Origin: an uncultured Bacteroidales bacterium
GTDB taxonomy: Bacteria > Bacteroidota > Bacteroidia > Bacteroidales > Paludibacteraceae
Direction: 5' to 3'
Assembly (NCBI GenBank): GCA_900316995.1
Contig: ONEZ01000001.1
Location: 86,252 to 150,251 of the forward strand
Length of the DNA: 64,000 nucleotides
Below the pieces are notes generated by a model. That model was given only the letters and a program-made list of their open reading frames with translations, was not told the origin of the DNA and did no database searches. A program made the translations under genes and the position numbers. Each line of letters starts with the position of its first letter. The stretch's first letter is position 1. Below, piece by piece: positions 4,294-53,569 of this stretch.

Positions 4294-4328
4294 TTAACTG
4301 TCAAATGTCAACTATCAACTGTCAACTA
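4294..4328 (+). repeat. 7-mer tandem array between gltD and asnB
   Basis: Five 7-bp units in a row: TTAACTG, TCAAATG, TCAACTA, TCAACTG, TCAACTA. It begins four bases after the gltD stop and ends just before the asnB start. It belongs to the same family as the arrays at 6001, 19884, 41817, 43049 and 53536. Confidence 0.9.
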
Positions 4329-4335
4329 AATAATT

Positions 4336-6003
4336 ATGTGTGGAATAACTTGTGCATTTAACTTGAAAAGCGACGCGGATAGTCTGCGTCCCAAGATACT
4401 TGAGATGTCAAAGAAAATCAGGCATCGCGGTCCTGATTGGTCTGGCATATTCTCCTGTCCTAAAGCCATCATGGCGCATGAAAGACTTTCAATAGTTGAT
4501 CCAATGTCTGGCGGACAGCCCATTTACAGCAAAGACAGAAAATTAGTACTTGCCGTAAACGGTGAAATATACAACCATCAGAGCATACGTAACAGGCTTG
4601 GTTCAAAATATGAATTTCAAACACACTCAGATTGTGAAGTGATTCTTGCCCTATACCGTGAAAAGGGCAAAGACTTTCTGGAGGATTTGAACGGCATTTT
4701 TGCTTTTGCGTTGTATGACATAGAGAAAAACATCTTTATGATTGGACGAGACCATATAGGCATAATACCATTATACCAAGGATGGGACAATAACGGGACA
4801 TATTACGTATCATCAGAGCTTAAAGCCCTTGAAGGCCAGTGCTGCAAGATTGAGGAGTTCCTGCCAGGCCAGTACTATTACAGTCCTGACGGGCAGCCAA
4901 CCATCTGGTACAAACGAGACTGGATGGAATATGATGCGGTAAAAGACAACCATACCTCAATACCTGAACTTAGGAAGGCGCTTGAAGACGCTGTGGAGCG
5001 TCAGCTTATGACAGATGTGCCATACGGTGTGCTGCTCTCAGGCGGTCTTGACTCATCAGTAATATCTGCCATAGTAAAGAAATTTGCAGCAAGACGTGTG
5101 GAGAGTGGCAACACCGCAGAGGCATGGTGGCCACGCCTGCACTCTTTTGCAGTAGGTCTTGAAGGGTCGCCAGACCTTAAAGCCGCCCGTAAGGTGGCTG
5201 AACACATAGGCACTGTGCATCATGAGCTTGTTTTCACCCTGCGTGAAGGGCTTGACGCCATACGTGATGTTATCTATCATATAGAGACCTACGATGTAAC
5301 CACTGTGCGTGCCAGCACCCCCATGTACCTGCTTGCCCGTTTCATAAAGTCAATGGGCATAAAAATGGTTCTTTCAGGCGAGGGCGCAGATGAAATATTC
5401 GGAGGGTACCTCTACTTTCACAAAGCTCCAAACGCAGAGGAGTTCCATAAGGAAACAGTACGCAAGCTATCCATGCTGCATCTGTATGACTGTCTGAGAG
5501 CAAACAAATCTCTTGCCGCCTGGGGAGTGGAGGGACGAGTGCCTTTCCTTGACAAAGAGTTTCTTGACGTGGCAATGAGGCTCAATCCTAAAGACAAGAT
5601 GGTTACAAAAGAACACCCAATGGAGAAATGGATTGTTCGCAAGGCATTTGAAGACTATCTGCCTGAAAGCGTGGCATGGAGGCAGAAAGAACAGTTCTCA
5701 GACGGAGTGGGCTACAGCTGGATTGACCAGCTTAAGGCCATAGCCTCTGAGCAGGTAAGTGATGAAGAGTTTGAACGTGCTGCGGAACGATTCCCTATAA
5801 ATACCCCGATGACTAAGGAGGAGTATTGCTACCGCCGCATTTACGAGGAGCATTTTCCATCTGAGAGTGCTGCCAAATGTGTGCCGTCACTACCATCAGT
5901 GGCATGTAGCACCCCAATAGCCCTTGAGTGGGATGCAGCATTCAAAAAAATGGCAGACCCCTCAGGCCGCGCCGTAAACGTACACGTCAATTCAAACTGT
6001 TAA
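4336..6003 (+). CDS. asnB: Asparagine synthase (glutamine-hydrolysing)
   Basis: The 555-residue enzyme makes asparagine from aspartate, ATP and glutamine. The N-terminus MCGIT puts the catalytic Cys at position 2 once Met is removed, as in class II glutaminases. The C-terminal synthetase domain has the PP-loop motif SGGLDSS near residue 237. Length matches E. coli AsnB. The TAA stop is the first three bases of a 7-mer tandem array. Confidence 0.96.
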   Translation: MCGITCAFNLKSDADSLRPKILEMSKKIRHRGPDWSGIFSCPKAIMAHERLSIVDPMSGGQPIYSKDRKLVLAVNGEIYNHQSIRNRLGSKYEFQTHSDCEVILALYREKGKDFLEDLNGIFAFALYDIEKNIFMIGRDHIGIIPLYQGWDNNGTYYVSSELKALEGQCCKIEEFLPGQYYYSPDGQPTIWYKRDWMEYDAVKDNHTSIPELRKALEDAVERQLMTDVPYGVLLSGGLDSSVISAIVKKFAARRVESGNTAEAWWPRLHSFAVGLEGSPDLKAARKVAEHIGTVHHELVFTLREGLDAIRDVIYHIETYDVTTVRASTPMYLLARFIKSMGIKMVLSGEGADEIFGGYLYFHKAPNAEEFHKETVRKLSMLHLYDCLRANKSLAAWGVEGRVPFLDKEFLDVAMRLNPKDKMVTKEHPMEKWIVRKAFEDYLPESVAWRQKEQFSDGVGYSWIDQLKAIASEQVSDEEFERAAERFPINTPMTKEEYCYRRIYEEHFPSESAAKCVPSLPSVACSTPIALEWDAAFKKMADPSGRAVNVHVNSNC

Positions 6004-6049
6004 CTGTTAACTGTCAACTGTCAACTATCAAATGTCAAATGTCAACTAA
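6001..6049 (+). repeat. 7-mer tandem array starting at the asnB stop
   Basis: Seven 7-bp units: TAACTGT twice, CAACTGT, CAACTAT, CAAATGT twice, CAACTAA. The first three bases are the asnB stop codon, and the array fills nearly all of the gap to glmS. Confidence 0.93.
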
Positions 6050-6055
6050 TACAAT

Positions 6056-7900
6056 ATGTGCGGCATAGTAGGATACATAGGTTCAAGAGAAGCCTACCCA
6101 ATTCTAATTAAGGGGCTTAAAAGGCTTGAGTACAGAGGCTATGACAGTGCCGGAGTGGCACTGCTTGGCAACAGCGGCAGACTGAACGTATATAAATCCA
6201 AAGGTAAGGTTTCTGATTTGGAGCACACAGCAGCAGGGAGCGACCTTAGCGGCCACATAGGCATAGCGCACACTCGTTGGGCCACACATGGCGCCCCTAC
6301 TGACGTGAACGCACATCCTCACGTTTCAGCATCGGGGAATATTGCATTGATACATAACGGGATTATTGAGAACTATGCAGTTCTTAAGGATGAACTCACA
6401 AGGCTTGGCTACACATTTAAGAGCCAGACTGACACAGAGGTTCTGGTGCAGCTTATAGACTACATTATGCAGGGCGGCAAAAAAGACCTGTGTCAGGCGG
6501 TTATGGAAGCCCTGACTCATGTAGAAGGAGCATACGCAATAGCAGTTATTGACACCGCAAGCCCAGACCGCATTGTGGTGGCGCGTAAGAGCAGTCCGCT
6601 TGTCATTGGCATTGGTGACGGAGAGTTCTTTTTAGCCAGCGATGCAAGCCCTATAGTGGAATATACAAACAAAGTGGTATATCTTGCTGACGGTGAAATT
6701 GCCACCCTTGACCTTGTGCATGGACTGACAGTCACAAATCTTGACAATATGGAGCACACTCCGGAGGTGCAGACGCTTAAAATGAGCCTTTCACAACTTG
6801 AAAAGGGCGGATATCCACACTTCATGCTTAAAGAGATTTATGAACAACCACGTACACTGCGTGACTGTATGCGAGGCAGAATATCCGAGTATGGCAACAC
6901 GCTTGTACTCTCAGGAGTGGAGGCGAATAAAGATAAGTTCTTAAACGCTAAAAGAATAGTGATTGTGGGGTGTGGAACATCATGGCATGCAGCCCTTATA
7001 GGCGAACATCTTATTGAGGATTTGTGCCGCATACCGGTTGAAGTGGAATACGCATCAGAGTTCCGCTACAGAAACCCTGTAATAAGTAGCAACGATGTGG
7101 TTATCGCCATATCACAATCAGGAGAAACGGCAGACACTCTTGCCGCCGTGGAACTTGCGCACAAAAACGGCGCGTTTGTCTATGGAATATGCAATGCTGT
7201 GGGCTCTTCCATACCAAGAGCAACAGATTCAGGTTCTTATATTCATGTTGGACCAGAGATTGGTGTGGCTTCAACCAAGGCATTCACAGGCCAGGTTACA
7301 GTGCTCACAATGCTTGCACTGTCTCTTGCCAAACTGCGCGGCACTATATCCGAGTCAAAATTTACTGATATTATCAGCGAGTTGCGCCATATTCCTGAAA
7401 AGATGGAGCGTGCCATAGAGATGTCTGAGAATCTTTCTGACATATCAAAAGTCTTTACATACGTGCGTAATTTCATCTATTTAGGAAGAGGCTACAACTA
7501 CCCTGCCGCCATGGAAGGCGCTCTCAAACTCAAGGAGATTTCATACATACATGCAGAGGGCTACCCTGCCGCTGAGATGAAACATGGTCCTATAGCGCTT
7601 ATTGATGCAGAGATGCCTGTGGTTGCAATTGCAAACTCAGACTCCGTATATGACAAGACTGTAAGCAATGTGCAGGAGATAAAGGCACGTGGCGGAAAGG
7701 TTATTGCGGTGGTTGACGAGGGCGACACAAAACTAAGCAAAATGGCTGATATTGTCATGTACACCCCTAAGACACTTGAAATGCTCTCTCCACTGCTTTC
7801 AGCAATTCCACTGCAACTGCTGGCTTATCATATAGCGGTAAGCAAAGGCAGAGACGTGGACCAGCCTCGCAACTTGGCAAAATCTGTAACTGTAGAGTAA
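6056..7900 (+). CDS. glmS: Glucosamine-6-phosphate synthase (isomerising)
   Basis: The 614-residue enzyme converts fructose-6-phosphate and glutamine to glucosamine-6-phosphate, the first step to UDP-GlcNAc for peptidoglycan and LPS. MCGIVGYIG gives the N-terminal nucleophile Cys of the glutaminase half. Two SIS sugar-isomerase domains follow (motif CGTSWHAA near residue 304), and the C-terminus ends DQPRNLAKSVTVE as is typical. No glmS ribozyme is possible in the short array-filled gap upstream. The purF-like gene starts four bases after the stop. Confidence 0.97.
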   Translation: MCGIVGYIGSREAYPILIKGLKRLEYRGYDSAGVALLGNSGRLNVYKSKGKVSDLEHTAAGSDLSGHIGIAHTRWATHGAPTDVNAHPHVSASGNIALIHNGIIENYAVLKDELTRLGYTFKSQTDTEVLVQLIDYIMQGGKKDLCQAVMEALTHVEGAYAIAVIDTASPDRIVVARKSSPLVIGIGDGEFFLASDASPIVEYTNKVVYLADGEIATLDLVHGLTVTNLDNMEHTPEVQTLKMSLSQLEKGGYPHFMLKEIYEQPRTLRDCMRGRISEYGNTLVLSGVEANKDKFLNAKRIVIVGCGTSWHAALIGEHLIEDLCRIPVEVEYASEFRYRNPVISSNDVVIAISQSGETADTLAAVELAHKNGAFVYGICNAVGSSIPRATDSGSYIHVGPEIGVASTKAFTGQVTVLTMLALSLAKLRGTISESKFTDIISELRHIPEKMERAIEMSENLSDISKVFTYVRNFIYLGRGYNYPAAMEGALKLKEISYIHAEGYPAAEMKHGPIALIDAEMPVVAIANSDSVYDKTVSNVQEIKARGGKVIAVVDEGDTKLSKMADIVMYTPKTLEMLSPLLSAIPLQLLAYHIAVSKGRDVDQPRNLAKSVTVE

Positions 7901-7904
7901 TTTT

Positions 7905-9761: not shown

Positions 9762-9767
9762 CCGCCA
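9746..9767 (+). terminator. Hairpin over the purF-like stop codon
   Basis: A perfect 9-bp inverted repeat, TGGCGGTCA and TGACCGCCA with a CGCT loop, overlaps the TGA stop at 9759-9761. No strong T run follows directly; a T-rich stretch begins about 14 bases later. It is a plausible end for the amidotransferase transcript. Confidence 0.55.
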
Positions 9768-9890
9768 AATGCCCCATCTTAATTTTTATTCTTTCTTACG
9801 AAGAAAACTAATATGACACAAAGGTACACAATTTTTTATAACTTTTAAAGTTTTCCACTTTATTTAACATTTTTTAACTCTTATTTTATA

Positions 9891-11186
9891 TTATTTCAAT
9901 TTCTCTAACATTTTTTGCACCTTTTCGTTGGTTGTATAGCCTTTGTTTACAAGTACAGCCTTAATTGCGGAGCCTAAATCAGCCACGGAGGCAAGGTCAT
10001 CAACACCAAGCATCATTTCAAGGGTGAATTTCATTTTCTTTGAATCACGATACTCCTTTATTCCCATGTTATTGCTACGTTGGTAATCTGCCAATACAGC
10101 ATTCATATCAGCACCACACAATGCAGCTATTATAGCGCAGAAAAAGCCAGTGCGGTCTGTTCCAAGACGGCAGTGTATGCCGTACGGTGCGGAGGTCTCA
10201 TCGGAGGCTATAAAATCAATAATCTCACCTACCCAGCTGCCAACCTTCTCACCTGCCGGATCAGAGTAACAGGTTTCATACTTTGGGGTGCCTGTACCTG
10301 TCTTAACTCCCACATAAAGCACTGCCCCATTGTCTATAATTCCCTGATAGTAAGCGGATATGCTCTCTTTTCTATTCTCACCGTCAAATGTGCAAGTCAC
10401 CAAGTTATTCTCCTCATTCTCTGAGAGGCAGATGTCAGACTTGATGCCGTAGGTCTCAAAATACTCCTTTACCAGATCAACACGCTTGAACTCTGTATTG
10501 TTACGGTTCTTGTCAGTGTATTTGAACGGGTGATAGCAACGTATCAGCTTAGTGGTGCCAGGCACAACACGTACATTGGAGATATCCTGTCTGCCTTGCT
10601 CAGTAGTCAGATCAAAATCTGAGAGCTTCTTTTTATTGGCTGCAAAAGCGCTTTTTGCCTTAATCTCCTCTATGTCATCTGTAGAGAAGACAATTATCTG
10701 GTTCACATCATTTCCAGCAAACTTATAACCTGCCGGCAGCCATGACGGAGCATCCTTCCAAGAACCGTTTACCACAAACTTATACTCAGGCTGTCCGCAG
10801 TTGCCTGGACGTCTTATCTTATCATACGGAACGGTAAGGAACCAGTATGGAAGCACCTTGGCGGTATCGCACCTTGAAAGCGAGTACCCTTCTGTCTCCT
10901 TCCAGTCATTGAACGAGCCACGTATCTCCACTTTCTTTATGTTTTTTATTTTCCACTGTGCGGAGTCAAACACAAAAGTAATGGTTCCCGCCTGTACGTC
11001 CTCAAAATAACATCTCTTTCTGGCATCGGCCAGAGGGTCTGCAACAGCAGGCGGAGTGTCTGGCGTATCAGGAGTATCTGGCGTATCAGGAGTTTCAGGA
11101 GTCTCTGGAGTTTGTGGAGTTGAGTCTTTTTTGCAACCCGAGAGTAGCATAGAAGCAACAAAAATGCAGTAAAATAACTTTTTCAT
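9891..11186 (-). CDS. Lipoprotein tyrosine-phosphatase-like protein with CBM48-like domain
   Basis: The 431-residue protein has a signal peptide ending in the lipobox LLSGC (Cys18) and a Pro/Thr linker of TPD/TPE repeats (residues 24-46). Residues about 67-168 look like a CBM48/AMPK-beta glycogen-binding fold: VEIRGSFNDW near 96 and PEYKFVVNGSWKD near 140. Residues about 190-431 are a Tyr/dual-specificity phosphatase of the Y_phosphatase3 kind, with the signature HCRLGTDRTG (Cys339, Arg345). It is predicted to sit in the membrane facing the periplasm or outside. The substrate is unknown; the domain pairing recalls laforin and SEX4. It is divergent from lysC. Confidence 0.8.
   Translation of the reverse strand: MKKLFYCIFVASMLLSGCKKDSTPQTPETPETPDTPDTPDTPDTPPAVADPLADARKRCYFEDVQAGTITFVFDSAQWKIKNIKKVEIRGSFNDWKETEGYSLSRCDTAKVLPYWFLTVPYDKIRRPGNCGQPEYKFVVNGSWKDAPSWLPAGYKFAGNDVNQIIVFSTDDIEEIKAKSAFAANKKKLSDFDLTTEQGRQDISNVRVVPGTTKLIRCYHPFKYTDKNRNNTEFKRVDLVKEYFETYGIKSDICLSENEENNLVTCTFDGENRKESISAYYQGIIDNGAVLYVGVKTGTGTPKYETCYSDPAGEKVGSWVGEIIDFIASDETSAPYGIHCRLGTDRTGFFCAIIAALCGADMNAVLADYQRSNNMGIKEYRDSKKMKFTLEMMLGVDDLASVADLGSAIKAVLVNKGYTTNEKVQKMLEKLK
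11040..11118 (-). repeat. Short coding repeat for a TPD/TPE linker
   Basis: Near-perfect 9-bp steps (plus-strand forms such as GGCGTATCA, GGAGTATCT and GGAGTTTCA) encode the Pro-Thr-Asp/Glu linker just behind the lipoprotein signal peptide. Copy number could vary by slippage without breaking the frame. Confidence 0.75.
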
Positions 11187-12584: not shown

Positions 12585-12587
12585 AAA

Positions 12588-18220: not shown

Positions 18221-19873
18221 ATGTTAAAACATCTTCACATTGAGAACTATGTTCTCATTAAAAGTCTGGACCTTGATTTTAGGCAAGGTTTCTCTGTTGT
18301 CACAGGACAGACTGGAGCTGGAAAGTCCATTATTCTGGGGGCGTTAAACCTGGCGCTTGGTGCCAAGGCAGACACTAAATCAATCTCTGAAGGAGAGAGG
18401 AAGTGCATAATAGAAGCAGAGTTTGATATTAAAGGATATGGTCTGGAGGAGTTTTTTGAGAATAATGACATTGACTACAGCAATAACTGCATAATACGCC
18501 GTGAACTTACTGACACAGGCAAATCACGCTCTTTTTTGAATGACACGCCTGTGCTTGTATCTGTACTGAAACAATTAGGAGTAAGGCTTATTGACATACA
18601 CTCCCAGCACAGCACCCTACTGCTTGAAAACAATACATTCCAGCTTGGCATAGTGGATAGCGTGGCAGGCAATGCCGATGCAATGGAGCGTTACAAGTCA
18701 CAGTATGAGTACTACCAAAGTGTCTGCCGATCACTTATAGAAAAGAGCGACGATGCTGCAAATGCAAAGAGCAACGCAGACTACATAAAGTTCCAGTATG
18801 ACCAGCTTAAGGAGTGCAACCTTAGAGAGGGTGAGCAGCAGGAGTTAGAGGGAAGGATAAACACATTAGAGCACGTTTCAGACATAAAAGAGAGCCTTGA
18901 ACGCTCCATAAACGCACTTGATTCTGATGGAGGCATACTCTCAGCCATGCACACTCTGCAATCTTCGCTTGAGGAGATTGAGGCTTTTGGCAATAGTTTT
19001 GAGGAACTGCTGCACAGGGTTACATCGTGCCAGATAGAGCTTAAGGATATATATGAGGAGATAGAGCGCAAGAACAACGATGTGGAGATGGACCCATCTG
19101 AACTGGAAGCCATGCAGGAACGAATGAGCCTTATCTACACACTGTTGCAAAAGCACAAGGTACGCACCGTGGAGGAGCTTATTGAGATACGTGACTCTCT
19201 GGCACTGCAACTTGGACAAATTGACAACTACGATGAGGAGATAGAGGTTCTTACAAAGGAGAAAAGCGCAATTTATGAGGAGCTTACCAAGCTTGCTGCA
19301 GAAATATCAAAGAAAAGAGCCTCCGTTACATCTGCCATTGAAAAACAGGTCATGGAGAGTCTTGCAGCACTTGGCATGCCAAACTCGGTGTTCAAGGTGG
19401 AAATAACACCAACCGCCGATATAACCCCTACAGGCACAGACGTAGTTCAATTCCTTATATCTTCAAACAAGACCAAACCACAACCTATACAAAACTCAGC
19501 ATCGGGCGGAGAGATTTCACGTGTAATGCTTAGCCTCAAGGCCATAATAGCCTCAAACAGCAACCTGCCTACGTTGGTGTTTGATGAGATTGACACAGGC
19601 GTTTCAGGTATGGTGGCATCACAGATGGGAGCCATACTGAAAAAAATGTCTGTGGGGATGCAGGTTATATGCATAACCCACCTGCCACAGGTTGCAGCTA
19701 AGGGAGAATATCATTACAAGGTGTTTAAAAATGAGAACACCAACCCAGTGCAAACATACGTCACACTTCTTGACGCAGATGAAAGGGTTGGTGAGATAGC
19801 TGCAATGCTCAGCGGTGAAGGAATCACAGAGGCCGCAATTAACAACGCTAAAGAGTTAATCGGCTCACACTAA
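18221..19873 (+). CDS. recN: DNA repair protein RecN
   Basis: The 550-residue SMC-like ATPase acts in double-strand break repair. Walker A is GQTGAGKS (about residue 29), the signature is SGGEISRVMLSLK (about 427), and Walker B is LVFDEIDTGVSG (about 450). A coiled coil with hinge occupies about residues 160-370. ITHLPQVAAKG near the end is typical. The TAA stop is the first part of the TAACTGT that begins the large 7-mer array. Confidence 0.96.
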   Translation: MLKHLHIENYVLIKSLDLDFRQGFSVVTGQTGAGKSIILGALNLALGAKADTKSISEGERKCIIEAEFDIKGYGLEEFFENNDIDYSNNCIIRRELTDTGKSRSFLNDTPVLVSVLKQLGVRLIDIHSQHSTLLLENNTFQLGIVDSVAGNADAMERYKSQYEYYQSVCRSLIEKSDDAANAKSNADYIKFQYDQLKECNLREGEQQELEGRINTLEHVSDIKESLERSINALDSDGGILSAMHTLQSSLEEIEAFGNSFEELLHRVTSCQIELKDIYEEIERKNNDVEMDPSELEAMQERMSLIYTLLQKHKVRTVEELIEIRDSLALQLGQIDNYDEEIEVLTKEKSAIYEELTKLAAEISKKRASVTSAIEKQVMESLAALGMPNSVFKVEITPTADITPTGTDVVQFLISSNKTKPQPIQNSASGGEISRVMLSLKAIIASNSNLPTLVFDEIDTGVSGMVASQMGAILKKMSVGMQVICITHLPQVAAKGEYHYKVFKNENTNPVQTYVTLLDADERVGEIAAMLSGEGITEAAINNAKELIGSH

Positions 19874-19953
19874 CTGTCTATTATCAACTGTCAATTGTCA
19901 ACTGTCAACTGTCAACTGTCAACTGTCAACTGTCAACTGTCAACTGTCAACTG
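19871..19953 (+). repeat. Large 7-mer array filling the recN-panB gap
   Basis: TAACTGT at the recN stop, a six-base break, then ten 7-bp units from 19884 to 19953; nine are exactly TCAACTG and one is TCAATTG. The array ends one base before the stop codon of convergent panB (19955-19957). The forward strand of the perfect repeat has no stop in any frame, while the reverse strand has TGA every 21 bases in each frame. Confidence 0.96.
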
Positions 19954-19954
19954 A

Positions 19955-33629: not shown

Positions 33630-34187
33630 ATGCGTAAAACTGTTATATCACTTATTTTAGTGTGTTTAGGCGTTGTGTGCTACGCTCAGCAGAGCACACT
33701 GCTGAACGAGGATGCTTTTCTTGATAACCTTAACTCCCTTCGCACAGACGGATGTATGTGCGGAATGGAGGATATTAACGGCATGTTGCCGCTACGCTGG
33801 GACAAGCGCCTGGCGGAGATTGCACTTGAATATGCTGAAAGCCTTAGGAGCAGCAACTCCAGTGATGATGACGCATACCTTTTCATAAGCCACATAGGCG
33901 CAGACGGCAGCACACTTACCACACGTCTTGACAGTGCCGGCTACGAGTACAGAGATGCAAAAGAGAACATTGCCTACATCAAGGGCAATGAAGACATGGT
34001 TATAGACTACTGGCTTAACAACCCCACTGCCTGCAAAACCATTATGGATAGAAAAATGACCTCAGTAGGAGTGGCCAGATCAGACAACTTTTGGGTTATG
34101 ATAGTGGCACAGCCAAAAATTACATTAAAGAGACTTAGAGACGCAAAAAAGAGTGAGCAGCCAGACACAGACTCCCCAACTCCCTAA
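33630..34187 (+). CDS. Secreted CAP-domain protein
   Basis: The 185-residue protein has a signal peptide (MRKTVISLILVCLGVVCYAQ) and a CAP/SCP/PR1-like domain: LRWDKRLAEIALEYAESL, FISHIGADGSTLTTRL, GYEYRDAKENIAY and a WVMIVAQP end. CAP proteins are extracellular or periplasmic and their bacterial roles are mostly unknown. The last residues DSPTP and the stop codon are encoded by the first units of an 8-bp tandem array. Confidence 0.85.
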   Translation: MRKTVISLILVCLGVVCYAQQSTLLNEDAFLDNLNSLRTDGCMCGMEDINGMLPLRWDKRLAEIALEYAESLRSSNSSDDDAYLFISHIGADGSTLTTRLDSAGYEYRDAKENIAYIKGNEDMVIDYWLNNPTACKTIMDRKMTSVGVARSDNFWVMIVAQPKITLKRLRDAKKSEQPDTDSPTP

Positions 34188-34234
34188 CACCTAAACTCCT
34201 TAACTCCTAAACTCCTAAACTCCTTAACTCCTAA
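34171..34234 (+). repeat. 8-mer tandem array over the CAP gene stop
   Basis: Eight 8-bp units of ACTCCTAA type (ACTCCCCA, ACTCCCTA, ACACCTAA, then ACTCCTTA/ACTCCTAA alternately). The first two units are coding and the TAA stop spans the second and third units. The array fills most of the gap to pgk. Confidence 0.93.
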
Positions 34235-34267
34235 ACTAAAAACTCTTAATCAATAAAACTTACAACA

Positions 34268-40562: not shown

Positions 40563-41812
40563 TGTTTGATATAGACAGCATACAGGAGATTTGGGCTACA
40601 ATAACACGTAATAAGACACGCAGCGTGTTCACAGCTTTTGGAGTATTCTGGGGCATGGTAATGCTCATGGTACTGCTTGGCTGTGGCTTGGGGCTTGAGC
40701 GCAGTATGCTTGAAAAATGGGGCGACACATCCACCAATGCCGCATTCTTTTTTCAAGGCACCACATCAAAGCCCTACAAAGGATTTAAGAAAGGGCGCAA
40801 AGTTCAGTTTAAGATGAACGACATAGACGCCCTACGTCAAAAATTCCGCGAGATAGAACGATGCTCGCCCATTGTGTGGTCATCAGCGCAGAAAGTTCTG
40901 TATCTTGACAAATCAACCAGCGGCGTTAACATGATGGGGCTTTCAAGTGACTACAACAGCATAAACCCTTGCAAACTTATAGAAGGGCGTTTTCTCAATA
41001 ACATAGATGAAGTTCAGAGCCGCAAGGTGTGTATGATAGGAACAAAAGTTAAAAATGACCTGTACGGAGCCAGCAACGCCACAGGCACCATTATATGGAT
41101 AAACGGTGCCGCATACACAGTCATAGGCGTTATGGAGAAGATGGCAGACATAAACCTGTTTGGCAGTCCGGAGGAATCTATCTATGTACCCTACACCACT
41201 CTGGCGCAAACATCAAACAAGGGTAACAAAATAGACTGCATATCTCTGGCGGCACGCAAAGATGTAAACATAGCAGACTTTCAAAATGAAGTAGCAGCAT
41301 ACCTGAAGGAGATTCACAGTGTTGACCCCGATGATGAGCAAGGCATAGGTATGTTCAACACCAAGCAGTTTTTTGACCTGTTCAGTATGCTATTTCTTGG
41401 AATAAGAATCCTTATATGGATTGTAGGGTTAGGAACGCTAACCGCAGGTATGGTTGGCATTAGCAATATTATGCTGGTTACTGTAAAGGAGCGCACACAG
41501 GAGATAGGCGTGCGAAGAGCGCTCGGAGCCTCACCTTATGTTATAATTCGCCAAATAATGAGCGAAAGTCTGGTACTTGCACTCATCGCAGGGTTGATAG
41601 GACTTATGACCGGTGTGGTTATATCTGCCGTAGCAGATCATTTCCTTAGTTCAGCGCCAAGTGAGGACAGTTTTATTGATGGGCTGTACGTCCCGTTTGA
41701 CATAGCCGTATCAGTTCTTATAATACTTGTGGTGAGCGGTCTGCTCTCAGGTCTTATGCCAGCATACAGGGCTATAAAGATTAAAGCGATAGACGCACTG
41801 AGAGACGAATGA
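40562..41812 (+). CDS. MacB/FtsX-type ABC permease 2
   Basis: The 416-residue protein has the same layout as its neighbour: N-terminal helix (FTAFGVFWGMVMLMVLLGCG), periplasmic domain, three C-terminal helices, and VKERTQEIGVRRALGASP. The stop is followed within five bases by a reverse-oriented 7-mer array, then by the adaptor gene. Confidence 0.93.
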   Translation: MFDIDSIQEIWATITRNKTRSVFTAFGVFWGMVMLMVLLGCGLGLERSMLEKWGDTSTNAAFFFQGTTSKPYKGFKKGRKVQFKMNDIDALRQKFREIERCSPIVWSSAQKVLYLDKSTSGVNMMGLSSDYNSINPCKLIEGRFLNNIDEVQSRKVCMIGTKVKNDLYGASNATGTIIWINGAAYTVIGVMEKMADINLFGSPEESIYVPYTTLAQTSNKGNKIDCISLAARKDVNIADFQNEVAAYLKEIHSVDPDDEQGIGMFNTKQFFDLFSMLFLGIRILIWIVGLGTLTAGMVGISNIMLVTVKERTQEIGVRRALGASPYVIIRQIMSESLVLALIAGLIGLMTGVVISAVADHFLSSAPSEDSFIDGLYVPFDIAVSVLIILVVSGLLSGLMPAYRAIKIKAIDALRDE

Positions 41813-41816
41813 TATT

Positions 41817-41904
41817 TGACAGTTGACAATTGACAGTTGACAGTTATAATAACTCTCAATTATCAATTATCAATTCAATACGATTAAACGATTAAACGAT
41901 TCAA
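41817..41904 (-). repeat. Compound short tandem arrays before the adaptor gene
   Basis: Four 7-bp units TGACAGT/TGACAAT (41817-41844), the reverse form of the TCAACTG family, come first. Then TCAATTA repeats (about 41856-41878), then three 8-bp units CGATTAAA, CGATTAAA, CGATTCAA (41881-41904) ending five bases before the adaptor ATG. Almost the whole gap is repeat. Confidence 0.88.
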
Positions 41905-41909: not shown

Positions 41910-42995
41910 ATGAAAAAGGCATTACGTATCATTGGCATTGTGCTGCTTGTGGCAGCTGTTGTAGGAACATTTGTGTATCTATGGATGAAATCACGTCCAG
42001 AGGAGAAAGTTTTTGAAACCACGCAGGCAGAAATACGCACCATAGAGAAGAACACCCTGGCCACTGGCAAAATACAGCCTCGTGATGAAGTCAAAATCAA
42101 GCCACAGATATCAGGTGTCATAGACAAGCTTTATAAAGAAGCTGGTCAAAAAGTACAGCAAGGCGAGCTTATTGCAAAACTCAAAGTCATACCAGACATG
42201 AACACCCTGGCCAATGCAGAAGCCTCAATAAAATTAGCCCAGATAAAATTACATAAAGCGCAGACCGACTATGACAGAGAGAAGCAGCTTTATGACAGAA
42301 AATTAGTCTCCGATGCTGACATGGAGAACTACGACGTAGCCCTAAACAACGCCAAAGAAGAGTTGCAGCGCGCAAAAAATCTGTATGACATTGCAAAAGA
42401 GGGAGCCACCAAAAGTTCTCAGAACACCAGTACCACTTTTGTACGCTCCACAGTATCAGGAACCATACTTGACATCCCTGAAAAAGAAGGAAACTCCGTA
42501 GTGCTCACAAACAACTTCAATGAAGGTACCACAATAGCCACTGTTGCAAATATGAATGATATGCTTTTTGTAGGCAAGATAGATGAGACAGAGGTTGGCA
42601 AACTTAACGTGGGGATGCCACTTACAATCCTTATTGGAGCCATTGAGGGTGAGAAATACGAGGCAGTACTTGAGTATATTTCACCTAAAGGAACCGAGGA
42701 GAACGGAGCGGTGATGTTTGAGATTAAAGCAGCTGTTAAAATCCCTGACGGAGAGTATCTGAGAGCAGGTTACAGTGCCAATGCCCAAATAACACTCAGC
42801 AAGGCGGACAGCATTGTGGCCATTCCTGAGAACACACTTCAGTTTGAAGGCACCACCCCATACGTGGAGGTGCTCACATCAGAGAAACCAGCAGTTTATG
42901 AACGTCGCAACGTAACCACCGGCTTGTCAGACGGAATGTACATTGAAATTAAAGAGGGAGTAACGTTAGAGGACAAACTAAAAGTGATTAATTGA
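41910..42995 (+). CDS. MacA-like periplasmic adaptor protein
   Basis: The 361-residue membrane-fusion protein has one N-terminal helix (IGIVLLVAAVVGTFVYLW), a lipoyl/barrel-sandwich start (TGKIQPRDEVKIKPQISG), a coiled-coil hairpin (about 95-160) and beta-barrel domains. It should link the MacB-type permeases to an outer-membrane TolC channel, probably the one at 43628. Substrates might be drugs, peptides or lipids. Confidence 0.92.
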   Translation: MKKALRIIGIVLLVAAVVGTFVYLWMKSRPEEKVFETTQAEIRTIEKNTLATGKIQPRDEVKIKPQISGVIDKLYKEAGQKVQQGELIAKLKVIPDMNTLANAEASIKLAQIKLHKAQTDYDREKQLYDRKLVSDADMENYDVALNNAKEELQRAKNLYDIAKEGATKSSQNTSTTFVRSTVSGTILDIPEKEGNSVVLTNNFNEGTTIATVANMNDMLFVGKIDETEVGKLNVGMPLTILIGAIEGEKYEAVLEYISPKGTEENGAVMFEIKAAVKIPDGEYLRAGYSANAQITLSKADSIVAIPENTLQFEGTTPYVEVLTSEKPAVYERRNVTTGLSDGMYIEIKEGVTLEDKLKVIN

Positions 42996-43048
42996 AAATT
43001 GAAAAATCACGGAAAGGCGAAGCCTTGACGTAAAATTGAGAGTTATTA

Positions 43049-43082
43049 TAACTGTCAAATGTCAACTGTCAAATGTCAACTC
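43049..43082 (+). repeat. 7-mer array overlapping the nuclease-like gene's 3' end
   Basis: Units TAACTG, TCAAATG, TCAACTG, TCAAATG, TCAACTC. The minus-strand gene ends inside it: its last residues LTFDS and TGA stop (43062-43064) are encoded by array units. Confidence 0.9.
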
Positions 43083-43496
43083 ATTAAAATCCGGTACTGC
43101 GCTTAAGTATTCATGCCTCCCTTTGGCAAAGTCAAGCTTTATGCAGTACAGTTGTTTTGAGTTTGTAAGTATTATATACGGGGCGCGTAGTTTGGTATTG
43201 TAGCTCACAGCCTGGAGTAAGACACTGCTATTAATCTCCACATCAGGGGCTTTGAACTCTATGAGTATGGCAGGGACACCAGCCTTATACACCACAGTAT
43301 CGCATCGGCGTAGTGAACCATTAAGTTTCAAACCTGTCTCCGTTGCTATTGATGTCTGCGGGTAGCCTTTCTCGTTGACCAGCCAGCAACAGAACCACTG
43401 ACGCACCCCCTCTTCTGGAGTATGCGCCACCCACCTGCCTCTAAAATGGTCAAAAACAAGAGGTCTTCCCGCTTCCGTTTTAGTTTTAATCTCCAT
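43062..43496 (-). CDS. Type I restriction HsdR_N-like nuclease-fold protein
   Basis: The 144-residue protein looks like the N-terminal endonuclease part of type I restriction enzymes. LRRCDTVVYKAGVPAILIEFKAP carries the Asp and Glu-x-Lys pattern of PD-(D/E)XK nucleases. No helicase or methylase follows, so a complete restriction enzyme is excluded. Standalone forms are common in Bacteroidota and their job is unclear. It sits inverted between the adaptor and TolC genes. Confidence 0.82.
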   Translation of the reverse strand: MEIKTKTEAGRPLVFDHFRGRWVAHTPEEGVRQWFCCWLVNEKGYPQTSIATETGLKLNGSLRRCDTVVYKAGVPAILIEFKAPDVEINSSVLLQAVSYNTKLRAPYIILTNSKQLYCIKLDFAKGRHEYLSAVPDFNELTFDS

Positions 43497-48554: not shown

Positions 48555-48571
48555 TAGGAGGGGTAAAAGTG
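48555..48571 (+). promoter_or_regulatory. Strong ribosome binding site of holA
   Basis: AGGAGGGG (48557-48564) lies five bases before the GTG start. Purine-rich Shine-Dalgarno sites like this are rare in this window and it supports the GTG. Confidence 0.65.
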
Positions 48572-49582
48572 GCAACCTACACCGACATAGTAAAGCAGAT
48601 AAGCATTAAGCAGTTTATGCCCATATATGTATTAATGGGCAAGGAGCCCTACTACATAGACAAACTCACAGAACTGCTTGAAGCGTCCATTCTCACAGAT
48701 GATGAAAAAGTAATGAATGAGACTGTGATATTTGGCAAGGATGCAGTTATGGAGAACATTCTCACAGATGCGCGCCAATATCCTATTATGGCGCCGTATC
48801 GTGTCATATTCATAAAGGAGGCGCAGATGCTTGATAAGAAGAAGCTGTCTCTCATAGGCAAATATCTGGAACATCCCGTAAGCAGTACAATAATTGTAGT
48901 CACCTATAAGACTGATGTTTTAGACTCAAACAAGAAAGAGAATAAAGAATGGCTCTCCAAAGCGGAAAAATTAGGGGTGGTATTCACATCGGAGAAGATA
49001 TCCGATTACAAATTACCGCCCATAATAACACAGATGGCAAACAAGGAGGGGCTTGACATTGATGACAAAGCGGTGGCCCTGCTTATTGAGCACGTGGGTT
49101 CAGATTTAACACAATTAGAAAGCATTATGAAACAGTTTAGCATAATGCTGCCTACAGGACACCGCTGCATAGACTCCGATGCTATAGAGAAGGTGGTGGG
49201 TATATCCAAGAACTACGTTCCATTTGAACTTGCAGATGCAATGTTAAAAAAGAACATACGCAAAGCAAACCTCATAATAGCCCATATCAATGATACAATT
49301 CAGAAAATAATAGCGACACTGTTTTCTTATTACTCAAATCTGCTAATCTATCAGTATATGCCGGCCGGCTTATCAGACAAAGAAGTGGCCTCCACTCTTG
49401 GAGTACAATCTTTCTTAGTAAAGAATTATAAGGATGCTGCTGCCAAATACAACAAGCGTCAGACATTTAACGCAATAGGAATTTTACGCAAATATGACAT
49501 CATGAGCAAAGGCGTAAACTGCCCTTCATCTGCAAACACACAAGGGTTGCTGAAGGAGATGGTATATAAAATATTGCATTAG
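48569..49582 (+). CDS. holA: DNA polymerase III delta subunit
   Basis: The 337-residue protein is the clamp-loader delta subunit that opens the beta clamp. The start VATYTDIVKQI, YVLMGKEPYYIDKL and the C-terminal AINAL-like helical region (VKNYKDAAAKYNKRQTFNAI) fit HolA. Start is GTG with a strong Shine-Dalgarno. It begins 15 bases after the permease stop. Confidence 0.93.
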   Translation: MATYTDIVKQISIKQFMPIYVLMGKEPYYIDKLTELLEASILTDDEKVMNETVIFGKDAVMENILTDARQYPIMAPYRVIFIKEAQMLDKKKLSLIGKYLEHPVSSTIIVVTYKTDVLDSNKKENKEWLSKAEKLGVVFTSEKISDYKLPPIITQMANKEGLDIDDKAVALLIEHVGSDLTQLESIMKQFSIMLPTGHRCIDSDAIEKVVGISKNYVPFELADAMLKKNIRKANLIIAHINDTIQKIIATLFSYYSNLLIYQYMPAGLSDKEVASTLGVQSFLVKNYKDAAAKYNKRQTFNAIGILRKYDIMSKGVNCPSSANTQGLLKEMVYKILH

Positions 49583-49622
49583 TTTTCGCCATACATTATA
49601 CACTCAAACATCATACATTAGA

Positions 49623-50975
49623 ATGAGATATTTCTTCATCGGCGTAGCAGGCACTGGGATGAGTGCCATAGCGCAGTACCTTAGCGGCAGAGGCGAACAA
49701 GTTTCGGGATCTGACCGCCTTTTTAGCAAAACAGACAAGAGTGAGACACAGCTCCAACTTGAAAGAGCCGGCATAGAGTGCCACTTCCAAGACGGCAGCG
49801 GCATAACCCCTGACACAGAAGCTGTTATTGTATCAACTGCTATTGAGGAGAGCAATGTGGAGTATCAGAAGGCAAAGAGTCTGGGCATACCAGTTATCAA
49901 GCGCTCAGCCTTGCTTGCTCAAATCTCTGACAGCATAAAGACAATAGCCGTGGGCGGCACATCAGGTAAATCAACCACCACAGCCATGATATTCCACATA
50001 CTGCAAAAATGCGGCAAGGAGCCGTCGCTCATCACTGGAGCGGGGCTTGCCACACTGCAAAAGCAAGGGCTTATTGGCAACGCCTTTAACGGCAGTGGAG
50101 AATGGCTGGTAATAGAGTCAGATGAATCAGACGGCAGCATCGTAGGCTACCATCCTGAAATAGCCCTGTTACTCAATGTGGAGCGTGACCACAAAGAGGA
50201 GAGCGAACTTATGGAACTCTTCTCTACGTTCAAATCACATACGAAAAAAGCTTTCATTGTAAACAGCAACTACCCCATTACAATGAGCCTCAGCCAAAAT
50301 GAAAGTTATAATTTTGGCACTAAAGGCAACCCTGGCATTAAGGGTAGCGGATTTGAGCAGGACGGATTCAGCATAAAATTCAATGTAAACGGTGTGCCTT
50401 GCTCCATTAACGCCATTGGTACTCACAATATGGAGAATGCACTTGCCGCCATAGCGGCAGCCGTACAGACAGGCATTACCGTGGAGCAAGCTGTTGAGGC
50501 AATAAAAGACTTTAGCGGCATATACCGCCGCGCCTCACTCGTACGTGCAGACCAGGAAAGACATCTCTATGTGGTAGATGACTTTGCTCACAACCCTTCA
50601 GAGGTAGCATCGGCCATTAAAGCTTGCCAGAGCATAACAGGCAAAGTAATAGCCTACTTCCAGCCTCACGGATTCGGACCGTTGCGCTTTATGCACAAGG
50701 AGCTTGGAGAACTGGTGGCGGCGACTCTGAGACCAAATGACATATTTGTAATTGGCGATGTATATTATGCCGGAGGCACTGTAAATCGTGACATTTCACC
50801 AGAAATAGTAAGCCAAGCCATACAATATTTGGGTAAAAACGCTATATTTGCAAAAGACAAAGAGAGTTGCAGGGCTGAAATTCTAAAAAACACACCTGAA
50901 AGAGACTGTACCATACTCATTATGGGTGCCAGGGACCCAAAACTAAGTGACTACGCACAAAGTTTTATACTTTGA
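49623..50975 (+). CDS. MurC-like Mur ligase
   Basis: The 450-residue enzyme has the MurC opening FFIGVAGTGMSAIAQYL and VSGSD, the ATP loop GTSGKSTTT (usual MurC has GTHGKTT), ESDESDGS, and the DDFAHNPSEVA element. MurC adds alanine to UDP-MurNAc; Mpl-like peptide recycling is the alternative. Three domains and length fit Mur ligases. A second, standard MurC may exist in the division cluster elsewhere. It overlaps no promoter-like gap before the next gene. Confidence 0.85.
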   Translation: MRYFFIGVAGTGMSAIAQYLSGRGEQVSGSDRLFSKTDKSETQLQLERAGIECHFQDGSGITPDTEAVIVSTAIEESNVEYQKAKSLGIPVIKRSALLAQISDSIKTIAVGGTSGKSTTTAMIFHILQKCGKEPSLITGAGLATLQKQGLIGNAFNGSGEWLVIESDESDGSIVGYHPEIALLLNVERDHKEESELMELFSTFKSHTKKAFIVNSNYPITMSLSQNESYNFGTKGNPGIKGSGFEQDGFSIKFNVNGVPCSINAIGTHNMENALAAIAAAVQTGITVEQAVEAIKDFSGIYRRASLVRADQERHLYVVDDFAHNPSEVASAIKACQSITGKVIAYFQPHGFGPLRFMHKELGELVAATLRPNDIFVIGDVYYAGGTVNRDISPEIVSQAIQYLGKNAIFAKDKESCRAEILKNTPERDCTILIMGARDPKLSDYAQSFIL

Positions 50976-50989
50976 AAGCATTGCAAGCG

Positions 50990-52579
50990 ATGAAAAGACA
51001 CTGCATTTCATTCATAGTATTCCTATTTGCGCTCACTACATGGGCGCAGGTAGTATCTGTCAATGAAGTTATAAATCCACATGTGGCAAGCGTGGATGAC
51101 TATGTGTCAGACATGGCTAAAGTATTTACGCCAGCAGAAGAGGCGCAAGTCAACAAGCTCTGCAAACAAATAGAGAATAAGGCCGATATTCAGATGTTAG
51201 TGGTCACTGTGCCGTCAATAGGCGACAGAGACCCATTCCAGTACTCCGTGGATTTATTCCAGCGTATAGGCGTGGGCGGCAAGGAGTCTAACCGTGGTAT
51301 TCTCATACTGTTATCAGTACAGGAAAAGAAGTGGCAGATACGTACTGGATACGGTGTTGAGGGGCGGTTCACTGATGCCATCTGCTCCCAGATAGGCCGT
51401 AACAAGATGGTTCCGGAATTCAAGAAAGGCAATTACTCCAAAGGTCTTACAGATGCAGTTGGATATATTCTAATCCTTGCCACCAGCGATGACGCCATGG
51501 CGGAACTTAAAGGAGAGACGGATGCGGCTGAAGCAGCCTTAAAAATGCGCAAAACGCGTGAGAATCTTAACTACTTTTGGATTCTGATAGCGCTCTGGTG
51601 TGCCGTGGCGTTTGCCATGTACTACTTTAACAAGCCATCAAAGAAACAGTCAAACAAGCCTGTTACAGACGTTGTGAAAAGCGACAACACCATTCCACTA
51701 CCATATATTATCAGCAAGGAGGTTGGGAACCATATCTACGTACAGCAAAACCCTAAGGCTGGCAAGGTGGAGTATTGGGACAAAGATTCCATAACAAGAA
51801 GCATGATTTACTTTATAGGTCCTGCTATTGCCACTGGTGCCGCCTGTGAGGTTACATTCAGTATGGGAACATTGCTTCCAATGATACTGCTATGCAATAC
51901 GTGGGTGGCTCTTAACTATATATTTGCCAGAGAGAGGAAACTGAAAAAAACAGAATCCCAATATGAAAAAAAGTTGGTATATGAAGATGGTTTCAGCGGC
52001 CCTGCATTTTGGACATCGGCATTGATAGCCCCCTGGGTGACACTTCCAGCCGCCATAGCTGTAATGGCAAAGAAGCGTAAGTACCGTGATGTCATGGCAC
52101 CATGCCCAAAGTGTGGCGGCAACCTTACTCCTTTACTTGACAATGATATTATAAAGTCAAGACTATCAACACAAGAACAGAAAGAGATGGAGATTGGCAG
52201 CCGCAAATTCAAGCTTATGATGTGTGAACATGGCCATGACATAGTGGAAGCCGTTACTGTAAAAGGGACAAAATATCATGTATGTTCACACTGCGGAGCA
52301 AGGGCTGGCAAATACCAAGGCTTAATAGTCAAAGAGAAGGCAACCACCTCAAAAAAAGGGCTACAGATAAACACATACCAATGCCTCTGCTGTGGTGAAA
52401 TGTTTGAGGAGCGTGTAGTTCTTTCAAGGTTAGAGACAGAAGCTGAACGCCAGCGCAGGCTTGAAAGAGAGCGCGAGCGTGAAGAGAATTATAGCTATTC
52501 AAACAGCGACAGTAGCAGCAGTAGCGGCAGCTACGGAGGAGGTTCCACAGGAGGAGGCGGAGCAGGAGGCTCATGGTAG
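50990..52579 (+). CDS. TPM-domain (YgcG-like) membrane protein
   Basis: The protein (about 529 residues) starts best at ATG 50990 (MKRHCISFIVFLFAL), 14 bases after the ligase stop. A TPM domain (VDDYVSDMAKVFT, GNRGILILLS-like core, IRTGYGVEGRFTD) fills about 30-165, followed by membrane segments. A Cys-rich C-terminal part follows with four CxxC knuckles (CPKCGG, CSHCGA, CLCCG). The tail is Ser/Gly-rich (SGSYGGGSTGG). Function of this family is not settled; a photosystem-repair relative gives the name only. Confidence 0.82.
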   Translation: MKRHCISFIVFLFALTTWAQVVSVNEVINPHVASVDDYVSDMAKVFTPAEEAQVNKLCKQIENKADIQMLVVTVPSIGDRDPFQYSVDLFQRIGVGGKESNRGILILLSVQEKKWQIRTGYGVEGRFTDAICSQIGRNKMVPEFKKGNYSKGLTDAVGYILILATSDDAMAELKGETDAAEAALKMRKTRENLNYFWILIALWCAVAFAMYYFNKPSKKQSNKPVTDVVKSDNTIPLPYIISKEVGNHIYVQQNPKAGKVEYWDKDSITRSMIYFIGPAIATGAACEVTFSMGTLLPMILLCNTWVALNYIFARERKLKKTESQYEKKLVYEDGFSGPAFWTSALIAPWVTLPAAIAVMAKKRKYRDVMAPCPKCGGNLTPLLDNDIIKSRLSTQEQKEMEIGSRKFKLMMCEHGHDIVEAVTVKGTKYHVCSHCGARAGKYQGLIVKEKATTSKKGLQINTYQCLCCGEMFEERVVLSRLETEAERQRRLEREREREENYSYSNSDSSSSSGSYGGGSTGGGGAGGSW

Positions 52580-52608
52580 CAGACAGCAGATAATGAGATT
52601 ATGATATT

Positions 52609-53538
52609 ATGAAAAAAGTTAAACTTGCAATATTTACGTTTATGGCAGTTTTGATTGCCATAGCGCTTTATGCACAACACACTGGTGAAATGGGACTATT
52701 TTCAAAAAAACAGCCACCTGTATGCGGCGGCTACACATCAAAGAAAGAGGAATGTAAATCTATGGAGAATGAGAAAGGTACAATATCCTCTATCTTTCTC
52801 TTCTTTTATGATGAGTACAAAGCACTTAAAATTGAATCTAAAGACGATACCGTAAAGATATACATTTGCTCAGATACAAATGAGTATCTGTACCAGGAGT
52901 TTCCATTCCCAGCCACAGACAAAACATTCTCCACTCTAACAAACTTGGTACGTAAAAACGGGCTTCTTAAATATAACGGCTGGGGCGTACATGTTAGCGG
53001 TCTGCCACTTACAACAGACTGTACATTTAGCATGAAGTTCACATCGGGGAACTCATATTACATGGAATTTAACGGTGGGCACTCCCCTATGGGATTCTAT
53101 GAGGACATGCAGAATTTTGTAAAAGATATTAAAGAACTTGTAAACTTTGACGAAGCCAGCAACAAAGATATTCCACCATACGTAAGCCCGTTCTGGGGTA
53201 CGCATAAGTTTGTGTATGAGGCTGGCGGCAAGAAGCAGACCATAATCTACTCCTCAGACCTTGAAGGGATACATGACAACATAGACCTAAAAACCTACGG
53301 AGACTTTTACAGCTACCAGCACATACACTGTAGCGGACACAAGATACACAGTGGGCAGGAACGTTATGACCTTGACATAGAGGAGTATTTTGAAGATTCA
53401 GAGCAGAAGCCTTCAACACGAAACAGCACCGCAGCAATCATTTACCAACGTGCAGGCAAACTTGAAATGGAAGTTCTCCAAGTTTGCCCCAGCATAGCCG
53501 GCAAAAAAATCATTCTCAAGGAGATAGAGGAAGAATAA
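52609..53538 (+). CDS. Hypothetical secreted protein
   Basis: The 309-residue protein has an N-terminal signal sequence (VKLAIFTFMAVLIAIALYAQ) and no recognised domain. Soluble mixed alpha/beta composition with several Cys is seen. I do not recognise a function. Its TAA stop is the first part of a TAACTG unit that begins a 7-mer array. Confidence 0.7.
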   Translation: MKKVKLAIFTFMAVLIAIALYAQHTGEMGLFSKKQPPVCGGYTSKKEECKSMENEKGTISSIFLFFYDEYKALKIESKDDTVKIYICSDTNEYLYQEFPFPATDKTFSTLTNLVRKNGLLKYNGWGVHVSGLPLTTDCTFSMKFTSGNSYYMEFNGGHSPMGFYEDMQNFVKDIKELVNFDEASNKDIPPYVSPFWGTHKFVYEAGGKKQTIIYSSDLEGIHDNIDLKTYGDFYSYQHIHCSGHKIHSGQERYDLDIEEYFEDSEQKPSTRNSTAAIIYQRAGKLEMEVLQVCPSIAGKKIILKEIEEE

Positions 53539-53569
53539 CTGTCAACTATCAACTGTCAACTGTCAACTG
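53536..53569 (+). repeat. 7-mer array filling the gap before convergent metF
   Basis: TAACTG at the upstream stop, then TCAACTA and three TCAACTG units. The array ends two bases before the metF stop (53572-53574), as at recN/panB. Confidence 0.93.

Follow-up and report, generated by a model that had tools for sequence, protein, structure and literature searches.

Tandem repeats of 7-nt units, dispersed between genes, have been described in several bacterial groups. Here, arrays of the heptamer TCAACTG and of other 7- and 8-nt units were analyzed in a stretch of 64,000 nucleotides (the window) from an uncultured Bacteroidales bacterium of the Paludibacteraceae (GenBank assembly GCA_900316995.1, contig ONEZ01000001.1, positions 86,252 to 150,251 of the forward strand) and in the genomes of its relatives. 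In the parts of Rehm et al. (2015; PMC4692102) drawn on throughout this text, two G-rich heptamers were described, GGGAATC of Xanthomonas and GGGGA(C/T)T of Nostoc. These repeats were intergenic, lay mostly between aligned open reading frames (ORFs) and in few cases between divergent ORFs, and had the G-rich strand in sense behind stops and in antisense before starts, with some overlapping the stop. Convergent repeat pairs numbered 70 in Xcc and 75 in Xac. Four units were preferred, long repeats occurred at different genes in two related species, and the units formed G-quadruplexes in vitro, to which the four-unit preference was tied. The arrays analyzed here resemble these heptamers in being tandem 7-nt units that are mainly intergenic, with the G-rich strand in sense at stops and in antisense at starts. 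They differ in that most units contain no GG, 8-mers obey the rule too, units are species-specific, the two arms of a pair can differ, and arrays occur between neighbors whose counterparts in a relative overlap or nearly abut.

Direct repeats of TAACTGA were reported from Beggiatoaceae, Cyanobacteria and five Bacteroidetes, including Paludibacter propionicigenes (MacGregor, 2015; PMC4679880, again for the parts drawn on here). That report gave 7-nt indels between strains and a gene-end overlap bounded by all-frame stops, and weighed mobility. In the Beggiatoa genome the repeats were mostly before starts, Paludibacter had two sets only, and one Bacteroidetes set lay directly behind a stop, in reverse. 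The present arrays are likewise intergenic 7-mers with AACTG in common, whereas their unit is TCAACTG (AACTGTC, not AACTGAT). Unlike the arrays here, the TAACTGA repeats came with no two-arm rule in the parts of the report covered, which note one inverted repeat.

The present arrays differ from REP/BIME elements in their 7/8-nt tandem periodicity, have neither a conserved palindromic unit nor a stable palindromic hairpin, and occur with no Y1 transposase found in the source genome or in other TCAACTG-rich congeners. REP/BIME elements are short dispersed extragenic repeats placed in alternating orientations, in operon gaps and in regions behind genes. The heptanucleotide STRR sequences of heterocystous cyanobacteria are also dispersed heptamer arrays. 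REP/BIME elements have been linked with RAYT transposases (in the parts used of PMC3733652 and PMC2817692).

The arrays formed arms, mostly near 32 bp, built of 7- or 8-nt units, had the G-richer strand reading outward, stood head-to-head, were species-specific, were present or absent between sister species, and were dispersed. Our preferred reading, held tentatively, is that the arrays are the arms of small dispersed spacer elements that settled at gene edges by copying plus edge selection.

Placement and polarity at gene edges

The source genome (G000; 2.15 Mb, 48 contigs, 83% complete) was compared with genomes of relatives, one genome per species, which carry the other G numbers; G012 is the sister species (median protein identity to G000 89%). 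The G000 sample comprised 41 stretches (the window, L121-L140 and L161-L180), totaling 820,132 bp or 38% of the genome. The G012 sample comprised 40 stretches (761,991 bp), and smaller samples came from G001 (340 kb), G002 (330 kb), G003 (114 kb) and seven more genomes (20-80 kb each). Array densities are biased upward because contigs were taken from hit lists and many stretches lay at known hits; within-gap positions are unbiased. Since genes were called by a simple codon-usage script, stop positions are more reliable than start positions, and short genes were in some cases missed. An array was scored as at a stop or start when it lay within -30 to +14 bp. As the null for stop association, each array was moved at random inside its own gap in 300 runs.

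In total, 104 TCAACTG-type arrays were found in the G000 sample, 66 at a stop and 32 at a start. Among the 100 arrays with two flanking genes, 66 were at stops, against 35.7 (SD 3.3) by same-gap placement with a run maximum of 45, and 30 were at starts, against 33.0. Enrichment at stop codons over other intergenic positions, the count on which the sequence-only reading had staked its case, was therefore present in the 38% of the genome sampled. Restricting the count to codirectional gaps, at an array threshold that was slightly stricter, left 78 arrays, 55 of them at stops (29.5 expected). Other families hugged stops as well: AACTCCTA octamers in G000 (11 vs 6.6), ACATCAT in G001 (15 vs 7.9), AACTCCT in G009 (4 vs 1.1) and AACCACT in G005 (5 vs 2.3). 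Starts were hugged by CACCGATT octamers in G000 (27 vs 18.4) and TCAACTT in G001 (17 vs 8.2). Stop versus start preference varies with family and species. Most arrays sit between codirectional genes; among G000 gaps of at least 20 bp, a TCAACTG array was present in 67 of 264 codirectional, 5 of 40 convergent and 8 of 66 divergent gaps.

The stop association is one half of a wider placement rule, antisense at stops and sense at starts, where antisense means that the G-richer CAGTTGA strand reads out of the gene. At most part of this placement can come from a stop-specific signal, since starts obey the mirror-image rule and most arrays lie codirectionally. Arrays touching only a stop in G000 were antisense in 44 cases and sense in 4, while those touching only a start were sense in 15 and antisense in 3. 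Arrays touching both ends of one gap were evenly split (7 sense, 7 antisense); four lay between two stops and 20 touched neither end. The rule was repeated in G012 (12:3 and 10:1), in G001, G002 and G003, and in octamers; CACCGATT in G000 gave 16:0 and 19:0, and the heptamer ACATCAT in G001 gave 13:0 at stops.

Rehm et al. measured whether the nearer gene lies 5' of the G-richer strand. By this measure TCAACTG gave 68:33 in G000 (4 ties) and 39:13 in G012 (6 ties), ACATCAT in G001 gave 25:6, CACCGATT in G000 50:12, AACTCCTA 11:5 (2 ties) and AACTCCT in G009 6:4. Assigned by the nearer half of the gap, arrays in convergent gaps conformed 20:3. Arrays away from both gene ends were hardly polar (41:34), as an edge filter predicts.

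Adjacent arrays in one gap formed 97 pairs across five genomes, of which 81 were head-to-head, 16 ran in the same direction and none was tail-to-tail; no tail-to-tail pair was found in a looser scan either. In G001, ACATCAT served as stop arm 24 times and as start arm twice, and TCAACTT 10 and 20 times, respectively. Six of the seven codirectional head-to-head pairs in G002 joined a TCCACTG stop arm to a TCAACTG start arm. The arms of one pair often came from non-complementary families, and a perfect palindrome or a single MITE family was rejected as the general form because arms often differ. The palindrome GTTATAATAAC was rejected as a universal center, having been found in gaps only six times in 820 kb. 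Very uniform two-arm elements, in which AGTTGAC units and a short center are followed by CATTGTCCACTGTCCACT[CA]TCCACTGTCCACT, were seen at L210:7549-7580, L209:12106-12137 and L216:9981-10012 (G002, G003).

In nine of nine perfect units the gene-facing strand has more C than G and is free of ATG, GTG and TTG; the opposite strand has a stop in every frame in eight of them. In real TCAACTG arrays the antisense strand carried all-frame stops in 93 of 104 cases. Start codons (ATG, GTG or TTG) were present in 7 of 22 sense arrays before starts vs 49 of 82 other arrays (p 0.03).

Arrays of the window and protein ends

The window was searched with the pattern TCAACTGTCAACTG, with up to two mismatches allowed. 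There were 29 matches vs 0.64 expected, and none of 100 shuffles reached 29; chance and composition were therefore rejected as the cause of the arrays. A count with the pattern read backwards is useless as a control for TCAACTG, which becomes its own rotation. This control was 0 for the units of two other species, AACCACT in G005 (175 matches) and AACTCCT in G009 (354 matches). All six TCAACTG-type arrays listed by the sequence-only reading were recovered where it had placed them. Together with further arrays, they are:

4289..4327, forward strand: TCAACTG array with the 2859-4289 gene (stop 4287-4289) on one side and the asnB-like gene at 4336-6003 on the other, ending 8 bp before the start of the latter
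5995..6047, forward strand: TCAACTG array that runs across the asnB-like stop (6001-6003), with 8 bp left between its end and the glmS-like start at 6056
19872..19953, forward strand: the longest of the window's arrays (TCAACTG), which fills the convergent gap from the recN-like stop (19871-19873) to the panB stop (19955)
34171..34237, forward strand: 8-mer array AACTCCTA/AACTCCTT that covers the stop (34185-34187) of the gene at 33630-34187, in sense and so against the polarity rule
41810..41845, reverse strand: antisense arm behind the FtsX-like gene, out of which CAGTTGA reads, with TGA 41810-41812 at the arm edge
41851..41876, forward strand: second, sense arm with the unit TCTCAAT/TCAATTA, joined to the antisense arm via the palindrome GTTATAATAAC at 41843
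41880..41901, forward strand: 8-mer array ACGATTAA between the two-arm element and the HlyD-like start at 41910
42990..43005, reverse strand: short AATTGAA array inside which the HlyD-like gene has its TGA stop (42993-42995)
43050..43081, forward strand: TCAACTG array within which the minus-strand HSDR_N_2 gene ends (TGA 43062-43064), with the GTTATAATAAC center as at 41843
53537..53569, forward strand: TCAACTG array filling the convergent gap from the 52609-53538 gene to the MTHFR gene (stop 53572)

Several details first read from the letters held up. The TAA stops at 6001-6003 (asnB-like), 19871-19873 (RecN-like) and 53536-53538 each lead into TAACTG units, and the minus-strand gene at 43062-43496 (HSDR_N_2 domain) has its TGA stop inside the array. 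The convergent gaps 19874-19954 and 53539-53571 are occupied by array save 1 and 2 bp, and the perfect TCAACTG unit has no stops forward and TGA in three of three frames in reverse. Two details needed correction: the gene called metH does end in TTTTGACAGTT, but this is one single unit and no array, and the array reported at 41817 is present but antisense to its own gene, the second sense arm and the 8-mer array beside it having been missed. The genes adjoining the window arrays are ordinary genes, with Pfam matches to Asn_synthase, SIS/GATase (GlmS-like), SMC_N (RecN-like), Pantoate_transf, FtsX, HlyD-like, HSDR_N_2 and MTHFR; the 52609 gene had no Pfam match at E 0.001. For the asnB-like protein, the best relatives with a name came from MAGs called Paludibacter sp. 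and Bacteroidetes bacterium, at 81% identity.

Of the arrays that touch a stop, half have it inside them. Among 55 antisense near-stop pairs the stop was within the array in 32 (31 of them TGA), and a TAG was shared with the array edge in 6; among 15 sense near-stop pairs the stop was within the array in 2. Proteins ended by antisense arrays finished in V[DEN][SNI] in 16 of 32 cases vs 2 of 552 other genes, giving shared tails such as -VDS and -VES. Single comparisons showed array tails that replace or add residues. For example, the protein at L134:19475 ends in -ATVDN, and its G012 counterpart ends before this tail. The sequence-only reading had also suggested a role in forming transcript or protein ends: stops and tails are indeed supplied by arrays, but there was no excess of C-terminus change, and array gaps were no more structured in three of four genomes. 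At L164:4699-5710, two G000 genes carry the array-coded tails -ISVES and -ISVDN; one G003 protein, ending in -ISFD, is the best relative of both.

Repeat families and sister species

TRF on 820 kb of G000 returned 63 repeats of period 7 and 39 of period 8, whereas periods 6 and 9 accounted for 2 and 3, respectively. In 80 named Bacteroidetes loci (1.5 Mb; one titled Bifidobacterium), 14 were of period 7 and 7 of period 8. Altogether, 22 of the 60 relatives searched had any TCAACTG match. Overlapping matches numbered 405 in G000, 23-104 in 5 of 15 congeners and 12-47 in 6 of 45 others. The congeners G005 and G009, with 0 and 2 TCAACTG matches, were rich in other heptamers. An 80 kb sample of G011 yielded no 7-mer array.

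Of 291 7-mer arrays, 104 were 30-35 bp long, and family medians were 29-33 bp. A geometric length simulation (one run, with parameters chosen by the author) placed 13 of 138 in this range and gave no such peak. In G000 the CACCGATT octamers had a median of 33 bp with two peaks (27-29 and 33-35 bp), and AACTCCTA arrays were longer (median 42 bp); one fixed length for every family is ruled out by these two. Most arrays of one family started and stopped at the same unit position.

Among 158 syntenic gaps compared between the G000 and G012 samples, 12 held an array in both, 16 in G000 only, 1 in G012 only and 129 in neither; the G000-only excess is partly due to G000 stretches having been picked at arrays and to G000 being array-richer. 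At some of the empty sites in G012 the genes overlap (L138:3606 and L140:6519) or are separated by 2 bp (L140:14397), and at L176:5356 the genes overlap in G001. Shared arrays of unchanged length were found at L131:5579 and L166:1201. Copy number differed by whole units at L121:10037 (about 12-13 vs about 3) and L137:17122 (one unit), and L134:7200 had an 8-mer array in G000 and a 7-mer array in G012. For the window, the G012 gap matching 4289..4327 also held an array, that matching 5995..6047 was of nearly equal length with no TCAACTG array detected and a different C-terminus, and that matching 41810..41845 had a different filler and no array. The recN-panB gap was filled with other repeats, head-to-head, in G002 and G003; it is one of several orthologous gaps where other congeners showed the same layout built of different repeats.

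In G000, 92 gap pairs shared an exact stretch of at least 24 bp. In 35 gap pairs the shared stretches, up to 73 bp, carried the array signature and were not strictly periodic. Empty sites, peaked lengths, constant termini and dispersed non-periodic copies together favor copying of discrete elements with later unit changes.

Other elements lay near the arms. Palindromic dispersed elements of the GTCATCCTGAG...CTCAGGATGAC type were found between two arms at L131:5579-6194, L129:3381-3520 and L139:352-527; the one beside the L131 array was absent at the matching place in G012. Heptamer arms are also accompanied by a second dispersed element, ATTACGCTGCAAGCGAGAGC...AAGGCGAAGCCTTGACGTA, about 95 bp long (L138:3606-3739, L176:5356-5490, L131:9264-9450), which gave a 73 bp exact match between two gaps. 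At L134:15017-15118 an array plus octamers stood between the start codon and TAnnTTTG, which we take to be a promoter motif; G012 had a short plain leader there.

Candidate explanations

Under the reading of the arrays as spacer-element arms, elements would spread as copies placed into gene junctions and would later change in steps of whole units, and edge selection would retain those insertions that leave both neighboring genes working. Behind a stop, the tolerated strand would usually be one with TGA or TAG in all three frames, so that a gene tail meets a new stop soon after any landing point; before a start, it would be the strand poorer in start codons. The exact stop positions would then be largely a by-product, as the array brings its stop along. 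These stop and start filters are plausible, but partial. Four families without a stop bias in the perfect unit, TCCACTG (stop on neither strand) and AACTCCT, AACCACT and AACTCCTA (stops on both strands), still obeyed the rule 29:1 at stops, counting arrays that touch a stop only (both-end, start-only and neither-end arrays were left out, as were 4 strict TCCACTG arrays of G001, 0 of them at a stop). Variant units bring some TAG or TGA into TCCACTG arrays. The three-frame-stop filter is ruled out as the sole cause of polarity by these families, and a second edge constraint would have to act on them; one guess, and no more than that, is that RNA rich in C, which attracts Rho, is avoided behind stops.

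Besides the 29:1 count, several observations weigh against this reading. No clear stop preference was seen for TCAACTG in G012 (17 vs 13.9) or TCCACTG in G002 (7 vs 6.2), and divergent gaps did not follow the polarity rule (15:12; G000 alone 4:10). The sense strand of 56 of 104 arrays holds ATG, GTG or TTG via variants such as TCAAATG. C-termini with array-borne stops had tails within one residue in 14 of 22 cases vs 264 of 398 genes without arrays, so by this alignment measure C-terminal alteration was not shown as a statistical effect; where the stop was at the edge of an antisense array or outside it, 24 of 26 tails were within one residue. The start-codon content and the C-terminus comparison make the support for copying plus edge selection slightly weaker. 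At L140:14397 loss in G012 is possible, since G001 has its own array there, and ancestral states are checkable in further species for some sites only. Xanthomonas heptamers were generally not found to be associated with mobile elements (PMC4692102).

The inserted element that the sequence-only reading had listed among its mechanisms fits best, given the empty sites and dispersed copies, although neither an enzyme nor a target-site duplication was found. Profile searches of G000, itself incomplete, for Y1 transposase and reverse transcriptase gave no match. The RAYT profile (Y1_Tnp, PF01797) was absent from G000 (83% complete), G012 (96%) and G003 (95%) and present in 2 of 16 genus genomes, G005 and G009, both with other heptamers. 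Reverse transcriptase (PF00078) was present in 5 of 16, including the array-bearing G001, G002 and G012 and also G011, whose 80 kb sample gave no 7-mer array.

It is rather unlikely, in our estimate, that the arrays are instead functional two-part intercistronic elements, a stop arm and a start arm selected to insulate neighbors by all-frame stops followed by a start-poor leader. The role-specific arms of G001 and G002, the role-specific hugging of stops by ACATCAT and of starts by TCAACTT in G001, the gaps that keep their layout with different repeats in a sister species, and the peaked array size would all suit such a function. Against it stand perfect TCCACTG stop arms without a stop codon, the 129 of 158 syntenic gaps that are arrayless in both species, the 16 with an array in G000 only, the many gaps that hold a single array, and the different roles that one unit plays in different species.

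A broader proposal, which we regard as unlikely, would make outward tandem arms of preferred length with a free 7-/8-nt unit a general gene-edge class of Bacteroidales, Xanthomonas and Nostoc. A dedicated, unrecognized activity, either copying or templated addition, would write the arms with G-rich-strand polarity; their form would be telomere-like (G-richer strand outward, ends head-to-head), and each species would rewrite them in its own unit.

Replication slippage in place, seeded at AACT-like motifs near gene ends and without mobility, appears quite improbable. Unit gains and losses do occur, as the differences at L121:10037 and L137:17122 attest. Slippage seeded at a stop, as the sequence-only reading had put it, is not supported as the main process in view of the peaked lengths, constant termini, non-periodic shared stretches and empty sites. 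The mixed arms, the head-to-head rule, the shared arrays of unchanged length (L131:5579, L166:1201) and the dispersed composite copies, with non-periodic centers and neighboring modules seen in part at unrelated loci, also speak against slippage.

It is very unlikely, in our view, that the arrays are RNA-structure elements acting in the manner of REP or ERIC, with terminator-like or RNase-protecting hairpins formed from the two arms. Head-to-head arms could pair if their units match, for example around the GTTATAATAAC center, and the location behind stops and the few arrays in divergent gaps (8 of 66) would fit. Array gaps were mildly more structured in G012 (median z -2.22 in 33 gaps vs -1.75 in 82 gaps), but not in G000 (-1.13 in 73 vs -1.47 in 79), G001 (-0.04 in 28 vs -1.20 in 35) or G002 (-2.07 in 10 vs -2.21 in 34). 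A hairpin function was thus unsupported in three of the four genomes with enough gaps (G003 had only 2). The arms are, moreover, often of non-complementary families, and the main site is codirectional junctions, at some of which the genes of a relative overlap; a terminator at such junctions would do harm.

G-quadruplex repeats of the Xanthomonas/Nostoc kind are alike in placement, polarity, convergent pairs and a size near four units (parts of PMC4692102), but are highly improbable here, as CAGTTGA, ATGATGT and ATTGAGA contain no GG and hence no G-tracts, AATCGGTG and AGTGGAC with one GG per unit allow at most a two-tetrad form, and the unit sequences (TCAACTG, ACATCAT, TCTCAAT; no GG on either strand) refute this reading for the main families of the genus.

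The placement rule does not need quadruplexes, since the main units here lack GG. The rule published for G-quadruplex heptamers thus extends to non-quadruplex repeats, 8-mers and units that change between species. Beside the covered parts of PMC4692102 and PMC4679880, what is added is the rule without G-tracts and with 8-mers, species-specific units, unequal arms, a length preference in bp, the presence of arrays where a relative has overlapping genes, and protein tails in common. The arrays also show a simple way in which repeat DNA can separate overlapping genes and give many unrelated proteins one short tail. Two testable questions are opened, namely which activity writes the arrays and why they point away from genes.

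Elsewhere in the window, a 9-nt repeat, GGAGTATCT, was seen at 11053-11120, inside the minus-strand ORF at 9891-11186.

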